Source: an uncultured Draconibacterium sp. (lineage in GTDB: Bacteria > Bacteroidota > Bacteroidia > Bacteroidales > Prolixibacteraceae). From it: a stretch of DNA of 64,000 nucleotides. Position numbers and translations under genes: made by a program. The notes beneath the pieces are model-generated. The model made no database searches. It had not been told where the DNA came from and saw only the letters and a list, made by a program, of their open reading frames with translations. Below are positions 55,214-55,911 of this stretch, piece after piece; the stretch's first letter is position 1, and each line of letters begins with the position of its first letter. Location of the stretch: contig NZ_CAJXTC010000025.1 of the NCBI RefSeq assembly GCF_913060805.1, forward strand, positions 1 to 64,000, in the 5' to 3' direction.

Positions 55214-55570
55214 ATGATAATACTGTTTGATGGCGTTTGTAATCTCTGCAATTCGGCAGTAGATTTTATCCTGGAAAAAGCGCGGGAGAAGGACTTTAAA
55301 CTTGTCGCGCTACAATCGGAAGAAGGACAGCAAATCTTAAAGGAGTTTGATTTATCGCTTCAAATTAACACCGTATTACTTATTCAAAACAACCAGGTAT
55401 TTTCTGAATCGGATGCCGTAATTGAAATCTGTAAGCACCTAAAATCGCCGTGGAGTTGGCTGGCACCATTTAAGATATTTCCTAAAACCTGGCGCAATAG
55501 TTTGTATCGTTATGTGGCAAAAAAACGCTACAAATGGTTTGGAAAAAGAACGAGTTGCCGAAGTTTCTAA
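55214..55570 (+). CDS. DCC-family thiol-disulfide oxidoreductase-like protein
   Basis: 118 residues from the ATG at 55214; a GTG at 55199 would add five residues, but the ATG has the A-rich leader usual here. The DCC signature is the N-terminal FDGVCNLCN with a CxxC pair, then LVALQSEEGQQIL and SDAVIEICKHL, ending YRYVAKKRYKWFGK. Family members (DUF393) have a thioredoxin-like fold; the partner is unknown. It lies 64 bp after the amidase gene and is the last gene before the 21-bp repeat array. Confidence 0.88.
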   Translation: MIILFDGVCNLCNSAVDFILEKAREKDFKLVALQSEEGQQILKEFDLSLQINTVLLIQNNQVFSESDAVIEICKHLKSPWSWLAPFKIFPKTWRNSLYRYVAKKRYKWFGKRTSCRSF

Positions 55571-55604
55571 CGCAAAAAACCCATCCTTGCATCCAATATC
55601 ACCC

Positions 55605-55831
55605 TGCGAGCATATTATAAAGTAGTGCGAGGGACTATTATTTACGTGCGAGGGAATTATAATATATTGCGAGCTAAGTATATTACTGTGCGAGCAACGA
55701 TTATAACCATGCGAGTATACCTCGCACCTGTTTATAGGTTGCTCGCATATCTTTATTTATTGCTCGCTTACCATTATTTGTACCTCGCGCGCTTGTATTT
55801 ATACCTCACAAGGTATTTTTACTACCTCGCA
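55605..55831. repeat. Dyad-symmetric array of twelve TGCGAG-type sites at exact 21-bp spacing
   Basis: GCGAG starts at 55606, 55627, 55648, 55669, 55690 and 55711, each preceded by T. Its reverse complement CTCGC starts at 55721, 55742, 55763, 55784, 55805 (variant CTCAC) and 55826. Both halves step by exactly 21 bp and are symmetric about 55718; the two inner sites are 10 bp apart. The 15-bp spacers are AT-rich with a TTAT/ATTA-like centre but not conserved in sequence. The 341-bp gap lies between convergent gene ends. The 21-bp step equals seven codons, which produces a spurious open frame; no gene is supported. Protein-binding array is the likely nature. Confidence 0.9.
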
Positions 55832-55911
55832 GCCATATTTCAGTAACCGGCGTAACTATAAATCAAATGAGATTAGCGATAACGTTTCGGGGAAATCAAC
55901 AAAAAGCTTGT

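Follow-up and report, generated by a model that had tools for sequence, protein, structure and literature searches.

The window analysed here, a stretch of 64,000 nucleotides of DNA from an uncultured Draconibacterium sp., contains a mirrored array of short sites at positions 55605–55831. The array lies between the gene for a DCC1-like thiol-disulfide oxidoreductase (PF04134; 55199–55570, plus strand) and the gene for a DUF4924 protein (PF16271; 55912–56451, minus strand), which serve here as its setting only. Its left arm (55605–55715, plus strand) is made up of six TGCGAG sites that start at 55605 + 21n for n = 0–5 (55605, 55626, 55647, 55668, 55689 and 55710), with GCGAG itself starting at 55606 + 21n. 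The right arm (55721–55831) holds six sites of the same type on the minus strand, seen on the plus strand as CTCGC starting at 55721 + 21n; a single site is altered, to CTCAC at 55805, and the base preceding GCGAG differs at two sites of this arm. At the junction of the two inverted sets is a 5-bp centre, TATAC (55716–55720 from the pattern-match positions, with no strand of its own), and the mirror point falls at 55718. The unit layout places a seventh unit in register outside the left arm (55584–55604, plus strand), in which a start of the CCTTG/CCCTG type replaces GCGAG, and by eye this cap is mirrored by a more degenerate one outside the right arm (55832–55852, minus strand). By eye, the left cap units of different arrays show a weak likeness.

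The pattern TGCGAGN14-16TGCGAG has six matches in the window, every one within the array, and none in 100 dinucleotide shuffles, while a three-site pattern searched against the 5.48-Mb window genome also matched six times, in the array only, with no match to the reversed control. The initial annotation had described twelve mirrored sites at a 21-bp step, one of them changed, and this description is confirmed by the coordinates, the shuffles and the whole-genome pattern search. Its statement that the step is exactly 21 bp holds for the window array but not for relatives, among which the array of G053 has an occasional 20-bp step. Similarly, the convergent genes that it reported on either side are present at the window locus, but at another locus the array has the 3' end of a gene on one side and the 5' end of a gene on the other, and the convergent setting of the window array is incidental.

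An open frame of 73 codons runs through the array (55625–55846), in frame with the DCC1-like gene. A translated heptad-repeat gene was the reading that the initial annotation had named as fatal to its own, and we rejected it, as the window frame is not kept in any of its six orthologues: in five, every one of the six frames is interrupted by stops, and the array of G121 is open in a different frame. The array could also be thought to work as RNA, either as a long hairpin or as a guide-RNA array resembling those of TIGR or CRISPR systems. The array strand does fold better than its shuffles (z = -7.3) and the centre can form a hairpin, but low folding energy is expected from the mirrored cores alone and would be found in any mirrored array. 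Spacers that would be paired are 0.425 alike versus 0.436 for unpaired spacers (permutation p = 0.86). Pairing between the arms is 49.6% in the spacers versus 53.7% in shuffles, and 94.7% in the cores, equal to shuffles. A search for compensatory changes between the arms found no excess covariation in spacers or cores, and on this, together with the spacer pairing below that of shuffles, a hairpin RNA or a cruciform was rejected. Rfam gave no match overlapping the array even at E 1 and one sub-threshold match outside it, so a known RNA family was also rejected. The spacers have a common base-specific consensus, and a Nop-type domain is not listed for the linked proteins described below, both of which argue against an RNA role. 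An RNA role is thus very improbable, and the absent covariation supports the view that the array probably acts as double-stranded DNA.

Searches of the window genome and its relatives, which the initial annotation had suggested, established that the array is unique in the window genome for the GCGAG pattern and that arrays of a common plan are dispersed among relatives in the genus. Three GCGAG sites in phase were matched in 11 of the 37 genus genomes (0 of 37 for the reversed control). A sequence-only profile, built from 22 arrays with that of G122 excluded for its indels, matched 15 of the 37 genomes at E ≤ 0.01, with a best E-value of 1.4e-7 or better in 12 genomes and of 0.001–0.007 in three; the strong matches in these 12 genomes mostly number one to three per genome. 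When 23 arrays were laid out per unit on a model assuming a 5-bp centre, most had six sites per arm, with individual sites altered here and there and a degenerate unit flanking the array at either end. In a pattern search independent of this model, the centre gap was 5 bp in all 15 arrays matched from both sides, that of the window included. The consensus of 220 units from the 22 arrays is TGCGAG-nTA-nW-AATA-WW-nnnn, in which position 15 is A in 94% of units.

The GCGAG arrays occupy at least four settings. Setting A has on one side the 3' end of a gene and on the other the 5' end of a second gene, which we take from their sequences to be MutS-like and parE-like, respectively; setting B is the window locus; setting C is behind a 236-residue gene; and setting D, in G077, is between two further genes. 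The initial annotation had also proposed mapping copies relative to the origin and terminus. In G103 the GC skew changes sign at 1.9–2.2 Mb and 4.3–4.6 Mb, and the eight arrays found there lie around the chromosome, at 0.22, 1.98, 2.59, 3.35, 3.61, 3.93, 4.07 and 4.79 Mb. Confinement to the origin or terminus was therefore rejected, with one of the eight arrays near the likely origin and the rest spread. Pattern scans were extended to a wider set of genome contigs and to viral sequences, and 235 loci among the matches listed from the two were checked. Two of these (L116 and L136) have both orientations in phase; they are from high-GC actinobacteria and are taken as effects of composition. No locus with a GC content under 50% was flagged as mirrored among the 235 checked.

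At locus B, the genus relatives are found in one of three states: with the array (G099, G083, G053, G103, G104 and G121), with a degraded remnant only (G087) or with no array (G030, G096 and G090). In the latter three, a segment of about 345 bp (55566–55910 in the window) is missing and the two flanking stop codons overlap. Alignment of filled and empty sites gives a segment of 342–345 bp whose two borders carry similar short words, GTTTCTA and TTGTTTA in the window and CTTTTTA and GTTTTTA in G053, and these words are weak evidence of target duplication because they include stop codons needed by both genes.

Between the window genome (G000) and G083, 1 of 60 core positions differs at locus B versus 30 of 180 spacer positions (Fisher p = 0.0014), a comparison that understates spacer divergence since the "spacer" positions of the innermost units cross the centre into the opposite core. 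Eleven of the 12 cores are intact in the window genome and all 12 in G083. The earlier proposal that selection acts on the sites and their phase is supported here, as relatives retain cores and phase while spacers drift. Core retention is not general, however: G087 has only its remnant, 8 of 12 cores are intact at locus A of G083 and 7 of 11 at locus A of G030. G104 and G053 differ at 5 of 60 core positions, alongside the 20-bp step in G053. Such decay, found in some arrays that lack the linked gene introduced below, and the open frame in the window array are what could be said for reading the array as a tandem repeat, whether due to chance or in decay, or as a translated heptad-repeat gene. 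With cores and phase persisting as spacers drift, and with the frame lost in the orthologues, the sequences largely refute this alternative, to which we give almost no weight.

One class of array sits directly 3' of genes from a multi-copy family whose products are distant relatives of the uncharacterised NCBIfam family NF052641, "PQLLE". At 95 of 99 family loci, the dominant 5-mer repeat offset within 400 bp downstream of the stop codon is 20, 21, 41 or 42 bp (4 have no such best offset), counted over related sequences such that the loci are not independent events; the 99 loci are 113 gene hits minus those with repeated or short (under 250 bp) downstream flanks. In the upstream flanks of family genes, a best offset of 21 or 42 bp was found in 7 of 98. 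That gene and adjoining array belong together is strongly supported, at the level of sequence. Of 140 genomes in the host family, 48 contain the aligned gene family, whose profile matched none of 395 phylum genomes, the window genome among them; a viral scan found no relative of the linked protein. The linked proteins gave no match above chance in Pfam, PHROGs (two proteins), PADLOC or PDB, and none of the anti-phage model families of PADLOC-DB was matched by seven proteins. NF052641 scored 35.3 and 34.2 bits against two array-linked proteins, under its curated cut-off of 80 bits, and matched 22 of 30 aligned family members at E ≤ 0.01. A full-text search for PQLLE in open-licence PubMed Central found nothing.

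The cores of the linked arrays vary widely and include GCGAG, CCTGT, CCTGC, CGAGTA, GTGATA, TGTAGG, GAGAAC, TGCGGA and more. Cores were called automatically, a rough procedure in which 14 of the 99 arrays fell below the score limit and were omitted from the tail tests, leaving 85, and core words are uncertain for a short-tailed subgroup (tails such as RYYR). With both arms summed, 12 units per array is the commonest number (21 of 85), followed by 11 (18 of 85), with a range of 7–21. Between gene and array, some family members have what by eye is a terminator-like hairpin. This bears on the suggestion that the arrays regulate their neighbours, as an operator cluster or a bidirectional terminator, a role that would fit their intergenic position, often after stop codons, and a possible hairpin at the centre. 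But a separate hairpin already stands ahead of these arrays, the settings differ, with some arrays lying between convergent genes and others flanked by one 3' and one 5' gene end, and the arms lack covariation, making regulation an improbable purpose.

The link to more distant relatives is drawn through NF052641, because the family profile had no match in the phylum genomes. NF052641 has hits in 14 of the 395 phylum genomes, above the cut-off in 5 (eight hits). The set examined, mostly of sub-cut-off members, comprised 32 hits, from which two without a locus and L515, whose frame looks by eye like that of a flagellar protein, were dropped to leave 29. An array with an offset of 20, 21, 41 or 42 bp, beyond all 60 shuffles of the locus's own flanks, is carried by 23 of the 29 and is missing from 6; it lies upstream in 21 and downstream in 5, three having both. 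Several kinds occur among these arrays: some repeat in tandem almost perfectly, at least one is mirrored by eye (L530), and some are located in stretches that are partly open reading frames. The distant set is thus more mixed than that of the host family. Two distant relatives have sub-cut-off Pfam matches, to DUF4473 (E = 0.0002) and to an MCM7-type winged helix (E = 0.0009). PQLLE-type proteins of L513, L528, L530 and others of the phylum sample are longer; that of L513 matches fibronectin type III structures in PDB, and the others appear alike by eye. At L507, what looks by eye like a Y1 (RAYT-like) transposase (2205–2768) is encoded directly behind a PQLLE-family gene.

Across the 85 proteins with kept arrays, core identity is tracked best by six alignment columns, and every one of these falls in the C-terminal tail, which is counted from the W of GYxSxYW. 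Among proteins whose bodies are 65–95% identical, tail identity is 0.225 higher in same-core than in different-core pairs, versus 0.081 (sd 0.029) when cores were permuted within clusters; none of 2000 permutations was as high, and no 12-column window ahead of the tail exceeded 0.10. The residue that could be read most directly is the fourth after the tryptophan. In the CAGG-type arrays (27 of the 85), Asn goes with ACAGG in 13 of 13 and His with GCAGG in 7 of 8, one being mixed, while Lys has two GCAGG and two mixed arrays, Arg one GCAGG and Ser one ACAGG. Asn with adenine, and His or Arg with guanine, are common pairings in protein–DNA complexes.

In eight gene-linked GCGAG arrays, the same residue was compared with unit position 7, the base after GCGAG. 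Where it is Asp (G053, G103, G121 and G099), G follows GCGAG in 45 of 47 units; where it is Asn (G104, G030, G077 and G070), G follows in 0 of 45 units, C or T taking its place. G053 and G104 have GCGAG-gene proteins with 91% identity, which makes the switch between Asp and Asn look recent. Elsewhere in the family, proteins 90% alike can bear quite different cores (L446 and L408), and sites with common upstream or downstream sequence have array parts that still align and cores that differ. Upstream sequence is in common at L410 (G030:C1:1874308), L399 and L446; no array was found at L410, and the relatives G087 and G099 at L399/L446 have differing cores. The idea of mutual core avoidance among paralogues within a genome was rejected, with 5 of 63 pairs sharing a core versus 6.6 expected. 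These comparisons strongly support the view that the tail has a bearing on which core the linked array carries.

The window array itself has no such gene. No family gene was detected in the whole window (0 hits at E ≤ 10) or in the window genome, and among the 23 GCGAG arrays, 8 have a family gene within the few kilobases examined and 15, including the window copy, do not. We read the window array as a probable orphan binding array in a genome without the family gene. No GCGAG-type family gene was found in G083 either; the cores of the window (55606–55829) and of L326 in G083 are preserved though neither genome has such a gene.

Orphans are also found with CAGG-type cores. A CAGGA three-site pattern occurs in at least 26 of the 37 genus genomes, a count in which single matches include chance ones (the reversed control gave up to 4 per genome). 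Of 20 CAGGA places picked as not gene-linked, at least 15 are by eye clear mirrored arrays with a short centre; 19 of the 20 have no family gene and one has a gene fragment. The window genome has two mirrored CAGGA arrays with no family gene nearby (L562, G000:C4:7262-7408, and L563, G000:C10:130271-130428). Beside the arrays at L578 (G070:C65:54800-59900) and G106:C98:15576-15692 there is only a C-terminal fragment of the family gene, and these two loci are read as orphans in the making. Such fragments, and an orphan in G070 with the same ACGAG core as one of that genome's own gene-linked arrays (L500 and L401), point to gene decay as one route to orphans; movement of the array alone is proposed as the other.

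The expectation that an orphan array would suit the tail of the gene in its own genome failed at position 7 for locus A and locus B. In genomes whose gene has the Asp tail, the locus B orphans have G in 3 of 11 units (G053), 1 of 12 (G103), 0 of 9 (G121) and 1 of 12 (G099), together 5 of 44 (L308, L310, L314 and L317), with mostly C or T instead. The locus A orphan of the Asn-tail genome G030 (L323) has G in 9 of 11. In the window array, position 7 is mixed (five C, six G and one T). This mismatch between position 7 and the resident tail counts against the reading of orphans as binding arrays for the family protein; they may be relics of different ages or may be served by another reader.

Taken together, these results suggest that the array offers, as double-stranded DNA, a binding platform to a small and presumably helical protein of an undescribed family distantly related to PQLLE, and that the window holds an orphan copy; we assign this reading a probability of about 0.8. 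The initial annotation had proposed a protein-binding platform of an undescribed type, and the link of gene to array and that of tail to core, both drawn from sequence comparison, favour such a platform. The compared arrays have a core of about 5–8 bp, a step of 20–21 bp and usually two inverted arms, most often with 11–12 units. We infer the binding itself, the oligomer and the purpose as follows. The C-terminal tail would read the core in the major groove, and one protein unit would cover 21 bp, or two turns, with a contact to A/T-rich sequence one turn from the core. The next unit would dock two turns on, placing units side by side on the same face of the DNA, and about twelve units, usually in two opposed arms, could form a nucleoprotein body of defined size. 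Orphans would arise through gene decay or through movement of the array only. The most likely use, to which we give about an even chance, is a scaffold that anchors or organises DNA, serving either the host chromosome or the persistence of the element itself. A wider picture is a phylum-wide, self-diversifying system in which a residue-to-base code in the tail directs a body of about twelve subunits, a linked tail and its cores change together, and orphans persist; this we offer tentatively, as falling a little short of an even chance.

The main rival to the scaffold is a non-autonomous mobile element, in which the twelve sites would be end sites for a transposition complex and the linked gene, or a transposase acting in trans, would move the array. 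This is compatible with protein binding and differs on purpose. It draws on the clean presence or absence of some 345 bp at locus B with similar border words of 6–7 bp, on gene-plus-array units and arrays in differing gene settings, on the dispersal of the orphans and on the occurrence of Y1 transposases in all 15 genomes tested. However, Y1 transposases also occur in G042, G090 and G096, genomes without GCGAG arrays, so that their presence favours neither side, and no transposase domain was recognised in the linked protein in Pfam, NCBIfam, PHROGs (for two proteins) or PDB. In addition, array copy number is low, several orphans are at the same locus across several species, and the required stop codons within the border words leave only a weak sign of target duplication. 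We consider a mobile element unlikely as the purpose, though less so than the other alternatives.

One of the closest known families is NF052641 itself, which the linked proteins match weakly and whose phylum hits also carry 21/42-bp arrays; the model description gives no function, and the arrays are mostly upstream there but downstream in the host family. Iterons and partition centromeres provide the general precedent of a protein whose clustered sites adjoin the gene that encodes it; in iterons and in the par centromeres (ParR/parC, ParB/parS and TubR/tubC), a small DNA-binding protein is encoded beside clustered, helically phased sites and could coat them. The family gene likewise lies beside clustered, phased sites at 95 of 99 host-family loci and 23 of 29 distant ones, where its product would be the binding protein, though the window locus is gene-less. 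The present arrays differ in being dispersed, usually with two inverted arms and about twelve units, and in being unconfined to the origin or terminus in G103, and no replication or partition gene was recognised by eye among the ORFs listed beside GCGAG arrays.

REP/REPIN sequences and RAYT proteins pair a gene family with matching dispersed, palindromic intergenic DNA (PMC2817692, PMC3116915, PMC3733652). The REP palindromes are of 20–40 bp and exceed 100 per genome, whereas the present arrays are of about 230 bp in few copies; the Y1 domain PF01797 is absent from the Pfam matches at E ≤ 0.1 of 30 aligned family members. TIGR arrays have two alternating repeats of 8–12 nt, 9-nt spacers and a Nop-domain protein (PMC12045711). 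TIGR-Tas resembles the present system in that a protein is encoded beside the array and repeats differ between loci, but here there is a single core, a spacer consensus in common, mirrored arms and no Nop domain found. The TAACTGA heptamer repeats are intergenic, some of them in Bacteroidetes, and present or absent between relatives; according to the sections consulted they are mainly direct heptamers with a proposed role in translation, and those sections report neither the mirrored arms nor the linked protein family that are present in the arrays here (PMC4679880). In open-licence PubMed Central, no described family was found to combine this gene with mirrored arms, about twelve units, dispersed orphans and a tail code.

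The comparison ties a protein family with no recognised domain or function to DNA arrays whose geometry is nearly constant while their letters change. Individual tail residues are associated with individual bases in the linked array, so that what was an isolated oddity becomes a system that comes with a rule open to testing. If the binding is true, the system would amount to a compact natural code for DNA recognition and to a bacterial nucleoprotein scaffold whose size is defined; it would also show a dozen or so binding sites changing in concert with the protein that reads them. The retention of orphans, sometimes without a gene or with letters unsuited to the resident gene, is made testable by these loci. 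One further difference concerns spacing: the CAGG-type arrays (L396, L403, L404 and others) have best offsets of 20 and 41 bp with steps of 20 and 21 bp mixed, unlike the GCGAG arrays, which hold their 21-bp step, and A-tracts in the spacers may shorten the helical repeat there.
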